This document shows, piece after piece, positions 10,246 through 15,878 of a stretch of 27,793 bases of DNA (position 1 is the first letter of the stretch; the number at the start of each line of letters is the position of its first letter). Origin of the DNA: a virus; the IMG/VR virus record IMGVR_UViG_3300021376_000281, positions 1 to 27,793 of that record, one strand, 5' to 3'. Under the pieces are notes generated by a model. The model saw nothing but the letters and a program-made list of their open reading frames with translations, was not told where the DNA came from and ran no database searches. The position numbers and the translations under genes are program-made.

Positions 10246-10650
10246 TTAGTCGTGGAACCCAGACAAGAACGGCTCCCGACATTCCGTCGGTGCCTCCTGC
10301 CAGGGCATCACCACCATGGCGCACGCACCGTCGAGCTTTAGGACACTGGGCCAGCGGTGATCAGGTGATGCGTCAACCCAGGCCCATGCCTCCACCTCGT
10401 CCTCGGTGTTGGCGAGCCTTGTGAACTTGCTTTGCTCTGTGGCCACGGCATCGACCAGGAGCATCCCTGGCGTGGGGTGTTGCAGCAGTGGTAGCGACAG
10501 CCGGTCGCTTAGCGCCACTGCCAGCACGATCCCGGCGGCGCTGGAGCCGTACACCCCGCTGCGATCACGACGCACGCACTGCGCTGCGATTAGGTCGATT
10601 GCGGCATCAAAGCCCGCCCAGGTCAGAAACATTAGGGGCGGGCGTCGCAT
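10246..10650 (-). CDS. Degenerate phosphoribosyltransferase-like protein (paralogue of the 11290-11676 gene)
   Basis: A 134-residue protein clearly related to the other phosphoribosyltransferase of this island. Shared stretches include WxxFxxAI near the start, SGVYG, LAVALSxxLxLPLL and the ending VVMPWQE. The family PRPP loop is damaged: the paralogue has VDDIYETGRT, here residues 66-75 read VDAVATEQSK, losing the second acidic residue and the TG. The RGG motif is replaced by SAAG (37-40). Catalysis by the usual mechanism is therefore unlikely, and a regulatory or subunit role is possible. ATG 10650 overlaps the QueE stop (TAATG). A longer frame from 10764 runs inside queE and is not used. 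Confidence 0.7.
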   Translation of the reverse strand: MRRPPLMFLTWAGFDAAIDLIAAQCVRRDRSGVYGSSAAGIVLAVALSDRLSLPLLQHPTPGMLLVDAVATEQSKFTRLANTEDEVEAWAWVDASPDHRWPSVLKLDGACAMVVMPWQEAPTECREPFLSGFHD

Positions 10651-11306
10651 TAACGCACCCCGGCGTATTTGTGGGTCTGAATGCTTAGCCGCCAGCGGTG
10701 GGTCATGCACGCCTCGACGCACAGGCGTGTGGCCTCGTGGCCCTGGCTTACTGGCTGCAGCCACACGCTGGTGCGCTCCTGCTTGTGCACCAGCAGGGCC
10801 TCCAGGTTGTCAATGTCGGCCTTGCCGGTGACCGGCATCTTGATCTCGTCTGCGGCAGCGATCGCGCTGGGCAGCACGTCCAGGCCACCGCCCATGGCCA
10901 CCTTGGGACTTACGGTCACCCAGGTGCCTGGGGCAACCTTGATCTCGTGGGTGCCGCTGGTCTCAATCTGCACCGTTCCCATGGTCTGCAAATTGGCGGT
11001 CAGCAGCCAGATGTCCTGAGCGCATGGCTCACCGCCGGTGATCACGAAGTGCCGGGGGCTGTAGTGGCCCACGTTCTTCACGATCTGCTCGGCGCTCATC
11101 TCCGCCCAGGTCGGCGCAGAGTCTTGCTTGTCGAGCATCTCTACGATGCCGATGCGCTTGCTCTCCGCACCCGGGTGCCAGGTGTGCTTTGTGTCGCACC
11201 AGCTGCAGCCCACCGGGCAGCCTTGGAGCCTGATGAACGTGGCCGGTGTTCCGGTCCAGCACGCCTCCCCCTGAATGGTGGGAAAGATTTCATTCACGCG
11301 AAGCAC
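10650..11306 (-). CDS. queE: 7-carboxy-7-deazaguanine synthase QueE (radical SAM)
   Basis: A 218-residue radical SAM enzyme converting 6-carboxy-tetrahydropterin to 7-carboxy-7-deazaguanine, the third step of preQ0 synthesis. Seen: VNEIFPTIQGE at the N-terminus, typical of QueE; the cluster motif CxxxCxxC at C30, C34 and C37 (GCPVGCSWCDTKHTW); and HFVITGGEP for the GGE SAM-binding motif. GTG 11306 is preferred: AGGAGG (11313-11318) lies 6 bases upstream, giving the N-terminus usual for the family. An ATG at 11321 contains that same AGGAGG as its codons 2-3. The start overlaps the phosphoribosyltransferase gene by 17 bases. Together with FolE, QueD and QueC it makes a full preQ0 pathway. Confidence 0.93.
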   Translation of the reverse strand: MLRVNEIFPTIQGEACWTGTPATFIRLQGCPVGCSWCDTKHTWHPGAESKRIGIVEMLDKQDSAPTWAEMSAEQIVKNVGHYSPRHFVITGGEPCAQDIWLLTANLQTMGTVQIETSGTHEIKVAPGTWVTVSPKVAMGGGLDVLPSAIAAADEIKMPVTGKADIDNLEALLVHKQERTSVWLQPVSQGHEATRLCVEACMTHRWRLSIQTHKYAGVR

Positions 11307-11676
11307 GGTAAGCCTCCTCATCAGCAGCGGCCGCCTCGGGGTCTTCCCATGGGAAGACGATCCATTCGGGTGAATCGATCACCTCGACGGCTCGGAACCA
11401 TGTTGGCCGCACCTTGCTGATCCACACGACGGCTTCACAACCTGGAAGGCTCTTTAGCCGGGTCAGGGTGCGACCGGTCTCGTAGATGTCGTCAACGATC
11501 AACGAGTCTTCTTCCGGCTCTAGCAGCAACGGCAGCTCCAGGTGATGGCTCAACGCCACCGCCAGACACAGCCCACCACGCGGAAAGCCGTAGACGCCAT
11601 TGAACGCACGCCCATGGTGCTCGGCGCTGATCTTCCAGACCGCCTCTTCGAAGTCAGACCAGCTCAGCCGTCTCAT
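11290..11676 (-). CDS. Type I phosphoribosyltransferase
   Basis: A 128-residue protein with an intact PRPP-binding loop, SLIVDDIYETGRTL (residues 58-71), and an upstream GVYGFPRGGLCLAVALS segment in which RGG corresponds to the second PRPP-binding motif. The family (Pfam Pribosyltran) joins bases to PRPP. The short length resembles small gpt/xanthine-type enzymes. It lies between queD and queE with ATGA-type overlaps, so it is co-expressed with preQ0 synthesis. Its substrate is unknown: it might salvage guanine to feed GTP to FolE, or act on a deazaguanine base. A degenerate paralogue lies two genes downstream. Confidence 0.82.
   Translation of the reverse strand: MRRLSWSDFEEAVWKISAEHHGRAFNGVYGFPRGGLCLAVALSHHLELPLLLEPEEDSLIVDDIYETGRTLTRLKSLPGCEAVVWISKVRPTWFRAVEVIDSPEWIVFPWEDPEAAAADEEAYRASRE
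11313..11318 (-). promoter_or_regulatory. Shine-Dalgarno deciding the queE start
   Basis: AGGAGG on the minus strand, 6 bases before GTG 11306. It lies inside the end of the upstream gene and points to GTG 11306 rather than ATG 11321. Confidence 0.65.
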
Positions 11677-12122
11677 GGACGGTATATCGCGGAGTTCGCG
11701 CCATGCTCGCGCACCTCGACTTCAGCGACACGACAGCGCGGGGCGTAGCCCTTGTCCTCCAGCCAGGTGTTGGTGGTCGTCCACACCAGCTGCGCAAACC
11801 TCTCGCATCCGACCGCAGGCACAGTCACCAGGTCGATCACGCCACGGCGATGGGCCTCCCGAAACCAGCTGATTTCTGGGTCGTCATCTGCGACCACGGT
11901 CTTGTGATCGAACGTGGCCTGCAGCCACGCCTTGAGATCCTTCAGCCCCCCGAAGTCCACCACCCAGTTGCGCTCGTCGAGATCATCCGCTTCGAACTTC
12001 AGATGCACTGACAGGGCGTAGCCATGCAGGAACTGGCAGTGGCTGTGAGTGCTGCGCCACTGGCGGAAGCACGCACTCAGCCCAACGTCGTGCCCCCAGG
12101 TCTTCGTGGAGATGAACGTCAT
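11673..12122 (-). CDS. queD: 6-carboxytetrahydropterin synthase QueD, variant metal site
   Basis: A 149-residue member of the 6-pyruvoyltetrahydropterin synthase family, making 6-carboxy-tetrahydropterin from dihydroneopterin triphosphate. Landmarks are catalytic-type C29 before LHG (SHCQFLHGYALSV), DFGGLKDLKAWLQATFDHKTV with D72-H73 of the catalytic relay, and VREHGANSAIY with the terminal Glu (E139). Two usual zinc ligands look altered: the family HGH motif reads HGY (Y35), and the early AAH motif reads SACF. Extra His residues (H26, H28) lie just before the Cys. ATG 12122 overlaps folE (ATGA), and the stop overlaps the next start. The pathway context makes the role secure even with the altered site. 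Confidence 0.88.
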   Translation of the reverse strand: MTFISTKTWGHDVGLSACFRQWRSTHSHCQFLHGYALSVHLKFEADDLDERNWVVDFGGLKDLKAWLQATFDHKTVVADDDPEISWFREAHRRGVIDLVTVPAVGCERFAQLVWTTTNTWLEDKGYAPRCRVAEVEVREHGANSAIYRP

Positions 12123-12787
12123 TTGAGTCCAATCAGCTGTAAGAACTCAGCTTTCATGTGTGGTTTGTCGCGGAACTCGCCTCGAACGACGCTAGTCACC
12201 ATCGACGTGTTCGGCTCGCGCACGCCGCGCCATTTCATGCAGTAGTGCTGGGCGTCCACGATCACGATCAGACCCACAGGGTCCACTAGCCGTTCGATCT
12301 CGTCGGCCAGGATCATCACCGCCTCCTCCTGAATGTGGGGGCGTGAGAAGACCCACTCGGCCAGCCGGACGAACTTCGACAGGCCAATCACCCGGTCGCC
12401 CGGCTTGATGCCGACCCAGCACTTGCCGAGGATCGGCACCAGGTGGTGGCTGCAGGCGCTGCGCACCGTGATCGGGCCCACGCTGTAGACCTGGTCCAGG
12501 TCCTTGACGTTGGGGAAGTCGGTCAACCGGGGGGCCTGGTGGTAGCGCCCGGCGAACACCTCCTGCAGATACATGCGGGCCACGCGCTCGGCGGTGCCCC
12601 TGGTGTTGTGGTCGTTGTCCACGTCGATCACCAGGGAACGCAGGAGATCCTCCACGCGCTGTGCAACCTCGCCCTCCAGCAGGCTCAGCTCACCAGGCTC
12701 GATGAACTGTGCGATGTTGTCGTTGGCCAGGAACGATGCGCCGGCGGCCGACAGGCGTTGGCGGATGGCTTCAGACGTAGATGGCAT
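12119..12787 (-). CDS. folE: GTP cyclohydrolase I FolE
   Basis: A 222-residue type I GTP cyclohydrolase, the first step from GTP to dihydroneopterin triphosphate. Signatures: TRGTAERVARMYLQE (residues 62-76), SACSHHLVPILGKCWVGI with zinc ligands C112 and H115, VIGLSKFVRLAEWV, and AQHYCMKWRGV with the third ligand C183. The usual CEHH is CSHH here. In this island it supplies the pterin precursor for QueD rather than folate. ATG 12787 overlaps the preceding DUF6884-type gene by 17 bases. Confidence 0.95.
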   Translation of the reverse strand: MPSTSEAIRQRLSAAGASFLANDNIAQFIEPGELSLLEGEVAQRVEDLLRSLVIDVDNDHNTRGTAERVARMYLQEVFAGRYHQAPRLTDFPNVKDLDQVYSVGPITVRSACSHHLVPILGKCWVGIKPGDRVIGLSKFVRLAEWVFSRPHIQEEAVMILADEIERLVDPVGLIVIVDAQHYCMKWRGVREPNTSMVTSVVRGEFRDKPHMKAEFLQLIGLK

Positions 12788-13220
12788 ACAGGCTCTCTGG
12801 CAGCTTGCGGTGGTGGGTTTTGAACCAGTTTCTCTGGAACCCCATGCGTGTGCATGGGGTGTTCATGTGCTCAGTCAGCACCTCAAACTGGGGTAGCACC
12901 TGGACCAGCATTTTGCGGTAGGGCTTGCCGGTGTTGACCAGGAGCGGTCGTTCTTGATCGAGGCCCAGCTCGGTCACTTGTCGCGCCAGCTCTGGCACCG
13001 TGATCACCTGACTGGGGGTGCCCATCTTGGCCTCGTATGGGGCAATCACCTCCAGCGAGCTGACGAGCCCGTACTTCGCAGACAGGATGTAGATGGCCCG
13101 CAGGGGCACGATGGTTCGCGCCCAGTTGAACGCAAGAGTGAACTGGCTGCCGGTGTAGAGCTGCCACGCAGGAGCGGCGACACGGCCTTTCCCTGCGCCG
13201 CAGCCGAGGATGATCTTCAT
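12771..13220 (-). CDS. DUF6884-type protein, copy A
   Basis: A 149-residue protein of a family I recognise as DUF6884. Its conserved parts are ILGCGAGKGRVAAPAWQLYTGSQF (N-terminal Cys/Lys motif, residues 4-27), IYILSAKYGLV (about residues 44-54) and VIAPYEAKM (about 58-66), then VNTGKPYRKMLVQVLP. The function of the family is not established. The gene sits between a second DUF6884-type gene and folE inside the preQ0/DpdA island, six bases after the previous stop and overlapping folE. GAGG lies 5 bases before ATG 13220. Lying among these genes suggests a role in deazaguanine DNA modification. I infer, without proof, a remote relation to YaaA- or ArcS-type domains because of the C-x2-K ... Y-x-S/G-x-x-F pattern. 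Confidence 0.7.
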   Translation of the reverse strand: MKIILGCGAGKGRVAAPAWQLYTGSQFTLAFNWARTIVPLRAIYILSAKYGLVSSLEVIAPYEAKMGTPSQVITVPELARQVTELGLDQERPLLVNTGKPYRKMLVQVLPQFEVLTEHMNTPCTRMGFQRNWFKTHHRKLPESLYAIYV

Positions 13221-13226
13221 GTGGCC

Positions 13227-13805
13227 TCATGTTGAGAAAGCGTAGAAGACGCGTCCATTAGCGACACGGGCAAATGGCGATTTGAGAAGACGCGAGAATT
13301 GTGCGCGTCTTGTTGAAGGGCTAGTCCAGGTATCAATACAGAACTTCTGAAAGTCCCTTACCGATGCGCCTGAGTTTTGATAGAGCCAGACTAAAGACGC
13401 TCTAAGCGGAAAGACGTTTCCCTTCACCGATCCTCTATTGCCCAGCGCCTTGGCTTTTTCGTAAATGCCGCCACTAGCAGCGACGCGAAACTCTACCAGC
13501 CGCAATGCCTTGTTGTAGTCACTTGGACAATAGGAGATCACTTCACAATCTCCAATCGCCTGAATTGCCTGCTGAATCTCTTCTGCAAGCCCTGGTCTGT
13601 CAGGGGTGATTCTCTGGTCGTAAGGCGCAATCACTTTACGTGGGTCGATAAGGCCATGGCGACCGGAAAGAATCCGAACTACGTCGCAGTCTTGCTTGGC
13701 CGCCAAAAAGTTTTGACTAAAAGTTGGACTCGCAGAGTAAAGCAGCCACGCAGGGCATGGCGTGGGCATCTTTTTTGACGAGCAAGCAACGATTCCAATC
13801 GTCAT
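13227..13805 (-). CDS. DUF6884-type protein, copy B with C-terminal extension
   Basis: A 192-residue paralogue of the next gene. Residues 1-115 hold the shared motifs: IVACSSKKMPTPCPAWLLYS, VRILSGRHGLID and VIAPYDQRI, then a segment matching VNTG...Y (VISYCPSDYNKAL). A C-terminal part of about 75 residues (SLVWLYQNSGASVRDFQKFCID, then SRLLKSPFARVANGRVFYAF) is absent from copy A and could be a small helical nucleic-acid binding domain. Base composition differs from the neighbours: eight rows counted by hand give about 51% G+C against about 65% in a folE row, a sign of separate acquisition. ATG 13805 overlaps the queC stop (ATGA). Function unknown; see the findings. Confidence 0.7.
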   Translation of the reverse strand: MTIGIVACSSKKMPTPCPAWLLYSASPTFSQNFLAAKQDCDVVRILSGRHGLIDPRKVIAPYDQRITPDRPGLAEEIQQAIQAIGDCEVISYCPSDYNKALRLVEFRVAASGGIYEKAKALGNRGSVKGNVFPLRASLVWLYQNSGASVRDFQKFCIDTWTSPSTRRAQFSRLLKSPFARVANGRVFYAFST

Positions 13806-14467
13806 GCGCGGTACTGCGTGGGATCAGGCACCCCGCTGTCGCGGAACGCTTCTTTGCGCTCGGTGCAGGCACCGCACTGACCGCAGTGAATGTCTCCGCC
13901 CTCGTAGCAGGTCCAGGTGTGCTCGAAGGGTACGCCGAGCGTCCCACCTATGGCTGCGATGTCGGTCTTGGTGTGATGCACGAAGGGTGCGATCAGCTCG
14001 AGGCTGTCCTTGCGGTGGCCCACCGTGCCGATGCGCATGCTCTCGTTTAGCGAGGCGATGAACTCGGGGCGGCAGTCGGGGTAGATGAAGTGATCCCCAG
14101 CGTGCACGCCGCAGGCCAGTACTTCCGCACCGTCGCTGCAGGCCAGGCCCCAGGCGATCGACAGCATGATCGCATTGCGGTTAGGCACCACGGTGGCCCG
14201 CATCGTCTCCTCGGCGTAGTGGCCATGGGGCACCGCCACGTCGTCGGTCAGCGCCGAGCCCTTGAGCAGGGGGCGGATCCCGCTGATGTCGATGATCGTG
14301 TGCTCAGCGCCCAGGTGCTCCGCCTGCCATGCCGCGCACTGCAGCTCCCGGCTGTGGCGCTGCCCGTAGTCGAAGGAGATCAGGTGGAGCTCGGGGTAGA
14401 CCCCCTTGAGCCAGTGGGCCAGCGTCACGCTGTCCATCCCGCCGGAGACAATGGCGACTGCTTTCAT
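13802..14467 (-). CDS. queC: 7-cyano-7-deazaguanine (preQ0) synthase QueC
   Basis: A 221-residue ATP-dependent PP-loop enzyme that turns 7-carboxy-7-deazaguanine into preQ0. The PP-loop motif SGGMDS is at residues 8-13, and SFDYGQRHSRELQCA follows at 31-45 as in the family. The four zinc-binding Cys are C187, C195, C198 and C201 (TCYEGGDIHCGQCGAC). VVPNRNAIMLSIA is also typical. ATG 14467 overlaps the dpdA stop (ATGA). A longer frame to 14638 runs inside dpdA and is rejected. No fused Gat domain and no nearby QueF-like gene are seen, so preQ0 itself, or a product of the adjacent unknown genes, is the likely modifying base. Confidence 0.95.
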   Translation of the reverse strand: MKAVAIVSGGMDSVTLAHWLKGVYPELHLISFDYGQRHSRELQCAAWQAEHLGAEHTIIDISGIRPLLKGSALTDDVAVPHGHYAEETMRATVVPNRNAIMLSIAWGLACSDGAEVLACGVHAGDHFIYPDCRPEFIASLNESMRIGTVGHRKDSLELIAPFVHHTKTDIAAIGGTLGVPFEHTWTCYEGGDIHCGQCGACTERKEAFRDSGVPDPTQYRA

Positions 14468-15294
14468 GGTGCGGTCCTGAGGTAAAGATCGGTGAAACCC
14501 TGCACCAGCAGACCCAGGGCCTGGGCGGTGGTTAGGGCGAGGAACATCTTGGTTCCGGTCTGGCGTTCCACATCCACCGACAGCGCCACCCCACTGCGAG
14601 CACAGAGGGTGCGTGATGCCGATGGGCCGCCGTGCCATTCATCCAGCTTCGCCAGCCGGAAGGGATCGACGCCCAGCTGCCGGATCCGATCGAGCACCGC
14701 CTGCGGTGGCCGGTCCTGGAACTGCGGCTTCTTGATAGTGAGGAACTTCGCGTTGCCCATGTAGAGCTTCAGCGCCCCGTATCTTGCCCCCGACTCCCAG
14801 GTGCTGCTGTCACACATGAACGGTCTGTAGACCTTGATGAAGTCCAGGTCGGTGAAGCCCAGCCAGTGCACCATGCGATCACCGACGTGGCGCATGATCC
14901 CCTTGACAAAGCCACGGTTGCCCGGGGTGCCCACCAGCCCCCCGATGCCCACCACGTCGCTGGTCTTGTAGAACTCCTCAAGCACCGTGGGGTCCTCGCC
15001 CCTGGTGAAGATCGGCACCGGCTTGAAGCCCCGGGCCAGCATCGTTTCGTAGTTGTGCATCGTGCCCTCCGGGTCGCCGATCACGTCCAGGGTGAAGTAA
15101 CGCCAGGGCTTGATCGGCAGCCCCTCGAGGAACCGGCAGTAGTCGTCGAGCTGAATCGGCTTGCCGGCTTTCCATGCCGTGAACGCACCAGAGTCGAGCA
15201 CGAAGCGGAGCGATGGCCCCACCACCCGCAGGCTCTCGATCACCTGGGGGTTCATGTACGGGTAGGCGACCAGGACGTTGAGCCTGGGCTCCAT
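14464..15294 (-). CDS. dpdA: DpdA-like DNA guanine transglycosylase (preQ0 insertion)
   Basis: A 276-residue TGT-fold protein of the phage DpdA type. FVLDSGAFTAWKAG (D34) matches the TGT 'DSGGFQ' acid/base motif. RYFTLDVIGDPEG (D70) matches the base-binding Asp, GIGGLVGTPGNRG (116-128) the glycine loop, and HWLGFTDLDF ... MCDSSTWESG, with D162, is the candidate nucleophile. The C-terminal zinc site of tRNA TGTs is not seen, which fits DpdA rather than Tgt. It would exchange guanine in DNA for preQ0. ATG 15294 is preceded by GGAGG 7 bases upstream and overlaps the previous stop (TGATG). It lies beside queC and a ParB-domain gene, a typical DpdA setting. Confidence 0.85.
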   Translation of the reverse strand: MEPRLNVLVAYPYMNPQVIESLRVVGPSLRFVLDSGAFTAWKAGKPIQLDDYCRFLEGLPIKPWRYFTLDVIGDPEGTMHNYETMLARGFKPVPIFTRGEDPTVLEEFYKTSDVVGIGGLVGTPGNRGFVKGIMRHVGDRMVHWLGFTDLDFIKVYRPFMCDSSTWESGARYGALKLYMGNAKFLTIKKPQFQDRPPQAVLDRIRQLGVDPFRLAKLDEWHGGPSASRTLCARSGVALSVDVERQTGTKMFLALTTAQALGLLVQGFTDLYLRTAP

Positions 15295-15878
15295 CAGCTG
15301 ACCTCCACGCTGATGGCGTGGCCGTCGCAATACATGCGAATGGCCTCCACCACCTCGTCGCGGTAGGTGCCGTCGAGCTTCACCACGATCTTGGCGCTGA
15401 TGCCGTCAAAGTTCTCCTCGTGCTTCTCGATCGCCTCGATGTCGCTTGCCCAGCCATCAGCGCCCAGGCCCTCGATCTCGGCGTCGCTGAAGCCCAGCAA
15501 GCTGATGTCAAAGTCAAGCTCGGTCAGGCCCTGGATCTCCTCGTTCAGCAGGTTGACATCCCACCCTGCGTTCAGGGCCAGCTTGTTGTCGGCGATCACG
15601 TAGGCCCGCTTCTGCGCAGGGCTCAGGTGATCGAGCACCACCACCGGCACCTCCTCCAGGCCCAGCTCCCGGGCCGCGGCCAGCCGGCCATGCCCCGCGA
15701 TCACCCCGGCGGCGGTGTCTACCAGGATCGGGTTCACGAAGCCAAACTCCACGATCGACCCAGCCAGCTGAGCCACCTGCTCAGGTGAGTGGGTGCGGGC
15801 GTTGCGCTCGTAGGGCACCAGCTTGTCGATCGGCCAGACCTCGATGCGGTTGGCCATGGCTGGGGTCAGCCGGGTCAT
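15294..15878 (-). CDS. ParB/sulfiredoxin-domain protein, possible DpdA partner
   Basis: A 194-residue protein. Residues 10-100 form a ParB/Srx domain: IEVWPIDKLVPYERNARTH, then QLAGSIVEFGFVNPILVD, then the phosphate-binding GHGRLAAARELG (62-73) and LDHLSPAQKRAYVIADNKL. Residues about 125-138 (ISLLGFSDAEIEGL) match the linker often seen in ParB-domain proteins tied to DNA modification enzymes, followed by a short C-terminal ferredoxin-like part (IVVKLDGTYRDEVVEAIRM). DpdB, the ATPase partner of DpdA in bacterial dpd clusters, is reported to carry a ParB-like fold, so a similar role is an inference. ATG 15878 is used; an internal ATG at 15857 is an alternative, and neither has a strong ribosome binding site. 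Confidence 0.78.
   Translation of the reverse strand: MTRLTPAMANRIEVWPIDKLVPYERNARTHSPEQVAQLAGSIVEFGFVNPILVDTAAGVIAGHGRLAAARELGLEEVPVVVLDHLSPAQKRAYVIADNKLALNAGWDVNLLNEEIQGLTELDFDISLLGFSDAEIEGLGADGWASDIEAIEKHEENFDGISAKIVVKLDGTYRDEVVEAIRMYCDGHAISVEVS

Follow-up and report, generated by a model that had tools for sequence, protein, structure and literature searches.

Tandem DUF6884 proteins of a phage preQ0 operon as candidate dPreQ0-tailoring enzymes

A virus record of 27.8 kb, IMG/VR IMGVR_UViG_3300021376_000281 (the window, analysed over its whole length of 27,793 nucleotides), carries on its minus strand a series of genes in the order ParB-like, DpdA-like transglycosylase, QueC, DUF6884 copy B, DUF6884 copy A, FolE, QueD, phosphoribosyltransferase-like and QueE. 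We propose that A and B are an optional enzyme that tailors the nitrile group of 7-cyano-7-deazaguanine (preQ0) in DNA, that is, of 2'-deoxy-7-cyano-7-deazaguanosine (dPreQ0), probably by forming an amide, and we put the probability of this reading at roughly 0.55. The proposal is based on homology, the fold of A, membership in the operon, recurrent linkage with preQ0 genes and conservation of motifs. The two genes are as follows.

12771 to 13220, minus strand: DUF6884 copy A, 149 residues (PF21818, E 3e-16); candidate dPreQ0-nitrile tailoring enzyme
13227 to 13805, minus strand: DUF6884 copy B, 192 residues (PF21818, E 9.2e-16); a second lineage, probably recently acquired

In the proposed pathway, FolE, QueD, QueE and QueC would make preQ0 and DpdA would insert it into phage DNA. 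A, and probably B, would be DpdC relatives consisting of a single stand-alone domain, and would act on the preQ0 nitrile after or during its placement in DNA. The likeliest chemistry would be a DpdC-like hydration or hydrolysis that converts dPreQ0 to the amide 2'-deoxy-7-amido-7-deazaguanosine (dADG), and the candidate active site would consist of the invariant residues C7 and K11 together with an S-x3-G element (S47, G51). Nitrile chemistry is proposed because the characterised relatives, DpdC and ArcS, act on preQ0 in nucleic acid. We infer the substrate, reaction, product and active site of A and B, and any functional difference between them.

Two paralogous DUF6884 proteins

A preliminary description of this DNA had placed two tandem DUF6884 proteins between queC and folE and had pointed to motifs that they share. 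Both open reading frames were found where it had put them, and the flanking genes were confirmed as queC and folE. The two proteins match PF21818 (DUF6884) above its curated cut-off of 30 bits (60.2 bits for A and 58.6 bits for B), and they are paralogues with 30% identity across 83 residues (E 1.5e-7 to 2e-7; 6.7e-8 by a separate search), so that the motifs common to them are not a matter of chance. The N-terminal pattern had been given as C-x2-K(K), which fits B but not A; the form found in both is C-x3-K. CxxxK and LSAxxG are the motifs named by Pfam for DUF6884 (PMC11701544; this and the other papers with PMC numbers are cited from excerpts). Both are present in each protein, as CGAGK and LSAKYG in A and as CSSKK and LSGRHG in B, where the second motif has G in place of A.

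We call a copy of DUF6884 preQ0-linked when no more than 2 kb separates it from a core gene (DpdA, QueC, FolE, QueD or QueE, found by local profile searches) on the same strand. Among the 28 linked copies are two that are identical, two pairs that are nearly so, and two fragments of a single gene. Removing one member of each of these pairs and one of the two fragments gave profile A3, which holds 24 copies. Across these 24 aligned copies, B among them, the residues C7, K11, I45, S47, G51 and Y62 (numbering of A) are invariant. The linked copy of locus L031 (9980-10467) is split into two overlapping frame fragments, by either a frameshift or a sequencing error. In four viral contigs (L092, L093, L094 and L099), DUF6884 domains are found within open frames of ~1,570-3,400 codons.

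Relationship to DpdC, YaaA and ArcS

DpdC is needed for the formation of dADG (PMC11888242), and hydrolysis of dPreQ0 is ascribed to it (PMC12839542); the former source names it as an example of DUF6884 and the latter as DUF328. At E 1e-12, DpdC was found in none of 48 DUF6884-bearing genomes, and it was present in one of the 369 genomes of the class searched next. A true DpdC (PADLOC E 5.1e-91, 310 residues) has DpdB, DpdA and a further DpdB as its neighbours. Alignment of profile A3 with this DpdC by hhalign gave E 2.2e-7 (E-values of profile comparisons, here and below, are those of single comparisons), and the Cys-Lys stretch, LY.G, SA..G and the PY region were aligned. Like A and B, DpdC has the C-x3-K, LY.G, SA..G and PY/VYN motifs, in its N-terminal domain, and is linked to dpdA, just as A and B share an operon with a DpdA-like transglycosylase. 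The PADLOC profile of DpdC, PDLC02815, matched A at E 9.6e-5, over profile positions 52-105 of 312 only, and did not match B. In a Haloferax volcanii control, the DpdC profile matched at E 1e-12 or better and not at 1e-15, which suggests a DpdC-like gene in that organism.

The preliminary description had also looked to ArcS, YaaA and DpdC for relatives and had named the fold as a test. The AlphaFold 2 model of A (predicted local distance difference test score, pLDDT, 94.8; predicted template modelling score 0.88) bears this out: its best structural match is YaaA (5caj; Foldseek E 1.6e-3, Z 8.3, root-mean-square deviation 3.7, 136 residues aligned), followed by AF0587 (2q07; Z 6.4, root-mean-square deviation 3.4, 101 residues aligned), where a Z below 8 taken alone can reflect a common arrangement. 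AF0587 is a homologue of ArcS, as ORF388 of phage nt-1 matches it at E 3.3e-8. ORF388, which we take to be the ArcS reported in nt-1 by Hutinet et al., matches DUF5591 (PF17884, E 2.5e-12). The single-sequence model of B has a pLDDT of 36, and the evidence from fold therefore concerns A. Structures with a uracil-DNA glycosylase or toprim fold stand lower in the structural list for A and were not taken as relatives; matches of A to acetylcholine-binding proteins in the PDB (phmmer, E 0.17 or worse) were taken as chance.

The kinship with YaaA is seen in sequence as well. Profile A3 matched YaaA at E 1.3e-5, and 17 of the 24 linked copies have a Pfam YaaA match at E 0.01 or better. A itself matched PF03883 (YaaA) at E 5.6e-4, with 20 bits and thus below the Pfam cut-off of 29.6, while a search of B with PF03883 gave no match. 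A is far from being a YaaA proper, since it scores 14.7 bits against a cut-off of 204 for the YaaA equivalog, and E. coli YaaA begins with ISPAKT, without the Cys of A and B.

ArcS is a more distant relative. A core profile of eight ArcS sequences, picked by their Cys-Lys motif, was matched over 101-106 collinear columns, C-x3-K included, at E 2.5e-4 by A3, 2.6e-5 by A4 and 2e-5 by A5 (HH probabilities 43, 75 and 77, respectively). None of 100 column shuffles of this core reached the score of A3 (best 20.3 vs 29.4), and the reversed profile scored 12.8. A3 found no match in the nt-1 ArcS by itself or in a profile of two ArcS sequences, and A4 gave no match in such a comparison either; DpdC and YaaA, each compared with the ArcS profile, gave no match; and a scan of viral contigs with the nt-1 ArcS found no relative. 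Judged by these profile comparisons, DUF6884 is related to enzymes that act on the preQ0 nitrile, namely DpdC and, more distantly, ArcS.

ArcS transfers lysine to preQ0 and acts even on the preQ0 nucleoside (PMC11298593). One could thus imagine that A, B or both attach an amine (lysine or some other nucleophile), and not water, to the dPreQ0 nitrile and produce an amidine-type base, as the collinear homology to the ArcS core, with none of the shuffled profiles reaching the A3 score, and the ArcS homologue as second-best structure of A would allow. We regard this as unlikely. The resemblance of the Cys/Lys pattern to ArcS, which had been noticed from the beginning, holds for C-x3-K in both copies and does not extend to the PY-x2-S-x2-H that follows it in the ArcS motif PC-x3-KPY-x2-S-x2-H (a motif seen in the ArcS sequences compared). 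Moreover, DpdC is the closer relative, and QueE is the sole radical S-adenosylmethionine (SAM) match among ten proteins scanned in the operon region, where no RaSEA-like partner was seen. The archaeal ArcS frames seen are mostly larger than A and B (open frames of 275-708 residues), and ArcS acts on tRNA. The DpdC-like formation of an amide remains our preferred reading.

The operon in the window

The genes that accompany A and B are listed below.

10650 to 11321, minus strand: queE (radical SAM; TIGR04322, E 5.3e-80, above cut-off)
11290 to 11676, minus strand: phosphoribosyltransferase-like gene in the interval between queD and queE (phrog_8995, E 8e-14)
11673 to 12122, minus strand: queD (phrog_2389, E 1.3e-44)
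12119 to 12787, minus strand: folE, GTP cyclohydrolase I (PF01227, E 7e-43)
13802 to 14467, minus strand: queC, preQ0 synthase (PF06508, E 8.8e-64; TIGR00364 above cut-off)
14464 to 15330, minus strand: dpdA-like DNA guanine transglycosylase, open reading frame of 288 residues (phrog_887, E 1.1e-26; phrog_7068, E 8.5e-18)
15294 to 15878, minus strand: ParB-like gene preceding dpdA (PF02195, E 4.7e-8; phrog_620, E 6.2e-55)

The start of queC is likely at 14467, although the mechanical open reading frame extends to 14638. By tblastn, the dpdA-like gene matches phage proteins annotated as queuine tRNA-ribosyltransferase or DpdA-like. The stop of queC and the start of B share ATGA (13802-13805), six bases separate the stop of B from the start of A, and the end of A overlaps the start of folE by 17 bases. 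Because of this close packing, dpdA-queC-B-A-folE-queD-queE form one operon by anatomy.

Two paralogous phosphoribosyltransferase-like genes, at 11290-11676 and 10246-10764, with 33-34% identity, are found within the preQ0 operon; the second is without a Pfam match of its own. A ParB-like gene precedes dpdA also in Fusobacterium phage phiFN37 and in locus L036, and among 101 preQ0 clusters compared, the commonest non-core family (45 loci) looks ParB-like on inspection by eye.

The place that A and B occupy is of the same kind as that of other tailoring genes in phage preQ0 operons, such as ArcS, Gat-QueC and QueF, which belong to other families. For example, the nt-1 ArcS, which A3 does not match, is located between a QueD-like gene and folE. 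Microbacterium phage Megan has two DpdA-like genes and a QueC with a sub-threshold glutamine amidotransferase (GATase) match in front, and gave no DUF6884 match in searches with A3 and PF21818. A single-sequence search with the Gat domain of Megan matched only Megan. Three Microbacterium phage records have a DUF6884-like tblastn match.

Recurrent linkage with deazaguanine genes

Single-protein scans of viral contigs returned one to three loci each, hence alignments were used as queries. For the viral set, IMG/VR was scanned with a single DUF6884 motif taken from alignment A1, which holds linked as well as unlinked copies; of the 135 loci confirmed, the 80 most similar to A were kept, with flanks of up to 10 kb. 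The cellular set came from a scan with alignment A5 (linked copies only) and consists of 80 of 263 confirmed loci with flanks of up to 8 kb. Median locus length is similar in the two sets (12.7 and 13.1 kb), each of which is biased towards A-like copies by the ranking on similarity to A. At least one core gene was found in 21 of the 80 viral loci and at least two in 18, while the cellular set has at least two in 2 of 80 loci (L182 and L184) and any in 4. The difference for at least two core genes is significant (Fisher p 1.7e-4) and persists when the four closest kin are left out (14/76 viral vs 2/80 cellular, p 1.1e-3). That the spread of DUF6884 relative to deazaguanine genes might be non-random had been raised at the outset; in viruses it is, and the gene clusters with deazaguanine genes. 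L182 resembles a phage operon. In L184 (7794-10368), on a contig of an archaeal assembly, DUF6884 stands directly before QueC, QueD and QueE.

The linkage is close, with no more than 60 bases between a core gene and 24 of the 28 linked copies, and it takes several forms. The gene orders include dpdA-queC-DUF-folE, dpdA-queC-DUF-queD and dpdA-queC-DUF-queE, and further dpdA-DUF-queC, dpdA-DUF-dpdA-queC and queC-DUF-dpdA. In L119 (7604-9999), DUF6884 lies between two DpdA-like genes.

In phiFN37 the unit is reduced to ParB-DpdA-DUF6884-queuosine precursor transporter. Its DUF6884 matches profile A3 at E 2e-40 locally and at 8.6e-38 in the whole record, and a QueC search of the record (FolE, QueD and QueE were outside this search) gave no match above the family cut-off and one partial match below it. 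The same four genes are found in L036 and in its copy L186 (a Clostridiales assembly), and in L140 the order is transporter-queC-DUF6884-dpdA. DUF6884 stays with DpdA where preQ0 seems to be imported and not made, which places it downstream of the preQ0 supply. Transporter-like genes occur in preQ0 loci lacking DUF6884 too (L110, L114, L115, L137 and L158), and the link with the transporter is therefore not special to DUF6884.

Copy number and descent of A and B

Three loci with otherwise syntenic operons differ in DUF6884. L003, whose operon proteins are 100% identical to those of the window, carries both B and A; L004 (proteins 68-85% identical) has A alone, between queC and folE; and L005 (69-88% identical) has no DUF6884, its queC frame ending at 2042 and its folE frame beginning at 2046. 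With copy numbers of 2, 1 and 0, the DUF6884 cassette is an optional extra. The phosphoribosyltransferase-like gene at 11290-11676 stays between queD and queE in L004 and L005, with DUF6884 present or absent.

The GC content at third codon positions (GC3) is 0.80 in A and 0.50 in B, with 0.70-0.89 in the neighbouring genes. A matches its neighbours and thus looks resident, whereas B does not match them and was probably acquired recently. Outside L003, A has its top seven BLAST matches (two of them identical) in preQ0 clusters; L029, in eighth place, is not linked to preQ0 genes and scores nearly as high as the seventh. In a first tree, A falls within a set of eight rows, of which seven are linked and one is ~2 kb away (Shimodaira-Hasegawa-like approximate likelihood ratio test, SH-aLRT, 91; not a starred set), and in a second tree the sole strongly supported set with A is that of A, L004 and L023 (SH-aLRT 99). 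B groups with L168 and L170, both preQ0-linked and downstream of queC (SH-aLRT 99, on long branches, in a larger locus set); by BLAST, the non-linked copy L062 ranks equally high. An earlier view that B had no preQ0-linked kin was dropped once the larger locus set had placed it with L168 and L170. A single clade of all preQ0-linked copies was rejected by the approximately unbiased test (p 0.0027, on a quick tree with long branches), and DUF6884 was therefore probably recruited into preQ0 operons more than once.

The foreign codon usage of B and the varying copy number would also fit a piece of mobile cargo (a moron) or a counter-defence gene that landed in the operon by chance, and the candidate defence profile PDC-M57A matches 24/24 linked copies and 39/39 copies of the other set (A is counted in both). 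This explanation seems to us very improbable, as A is codon-adapted and the linked copies adjoin queC or dpdA in several gene orders, which could hardly come from random landing.

Phages with known bases and copies outside preQ0 operons

Several observations weigh against a tailoring role of A and B. DpdC has an extra C-terminal half, and A and B are only about half its length. The likeness to DpdC is not confined to linked copies, because the DpdC profile matches 37 of 39 copies without preQ0 genes (A included) against 21 of 24 linked ones; an initial idea that the linked copies are the more DpdC-like was dropped on these counts. Thus the proposed kinship with ArcS, YaaA and DpdC is upheld by homology and gene linkage, but the DpdC likeness is a property of the whole family, and a preQ0 substrate does not follow from the fold by itself. 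The viral linkage counts stand without a baseline from an unrelated viral gene. Among the 80 viral DUF6884 loci, 59 have no core gene in the stretch examined, and among 80 loci fetched with a QueC alignment only nine (two of them already known) have DUF6884 within ~2 kb, so that the link is strong, yet most such preQ0 clusters lack the gene.

Phages of known base composition also speak against it. dADG has been reported in CP220, CPt10, 7-11, MED16, nt-1 and HVTV-1, two of which are fully substituted and four at a low level (PMC6884629, PMC8306585). None of the six has an A3 match at E 1, in a search of 14 records in which the four carriers (phiFN37, Laurie, KS14 and Saguaro) were all matched, and CP220, CPt10, 7-11, MED16 and nt-1 have no PF21818 match either. 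These phages would therefore make dADG otherwise, or their dADG would be of chemical origin. Conversely, a DUF6884 gene is found in Laurie, of the genus Rosebushvirus, and in 34 further mycobacteriophage records, duplicates included, and Rosebush DNA has 96,530 dPreQ0 and only 9 dADG per million nucleotides (PMC6884629, Table 2). The gene of Laurie stands behind the terminase on the opposite strand and belongs to a different lineage from the preQ0-linked A, grouping with L084 and the copy of Saguaro (SH-aLRT 98). Either this type of copy is not a dADG synthase, or it is not expressed, or Rosebush itself is without it. Furthermore, the stretches shown of KS14, TMCBR3, Saguaro and Ponzi contain DUF6884 and no gene annotated for preQ0; searches found no core-gene match in that stretch of KS14, TMCBR3 and Saguaro, and no QueC match in the whole record of TMCBR3 and Ponzi.

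Such copies would be explained if DUF6884 proteins had an accessory role as YaaA- or YfjM-like proteins, in recognising or repairing DNA that is damaged or contains deazaguanine, or in assisting DpdA, and carried out no chemistry on preQ0. A has the same fold as YaaA, and the authors of the Pfam entry proposed DNA binding and possibly repair for DUF6884 (PMC11701544). YfjM-type stand-alone proteins belong to the same Pfam family (PF21818) and have the same motifs as A and B, and the excerpt of that paper does not mention a linkage of YfjM to preQ0 genes or dpdA. With most viral loci lacking core genes in the stretch examined, the accessory role deserves consideration; we nonetheless think it rather unlikely, since the gene recurs on the same strand within preQ0 operons across more than one lineage and stands beside DpdA and the transporter, which fits a pathway step better.

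Implications

The literature found on DUF6884 and on phage DpdC and preQ0, as far as its excerpts go, does not describe the linkage of DUF6884 with phage preQ0 genes. Cui et al. (2023) reportedly described further phage 7-deazaguanines and could already contain part of this linkage. The conversion of dPreQ0 to dADG in phages was called poorly explained in 2021 (PMC8306585), and an unidentified phage protein was suggested for Salmonella phage 7-11 (PMC6884629). A single-domain relative of DpdC with 149 residues that adjoins queC or dpdA in a range of phages is a concrete candidate, and one that should be easy to express, for this step in the phages that carry it, of which 7-11, with no match, is not one. 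If the amide-forming role is true, the four-gene cassette of the phiFN37 type would offer a compact means of introducing a modified guanine into DNA, and a function would be assigned to part of DUF6884, a Pfam family so far uncharacterised. More speculatively, and with a rather small chance of being right, these proteins may represent an unnamed family of stand-alone phage enzymes for dPreQ0 tailoring, recruited more than once, and phages with two copies, such as the one described here, may make two products or a DNA base that is as yet undescribed.

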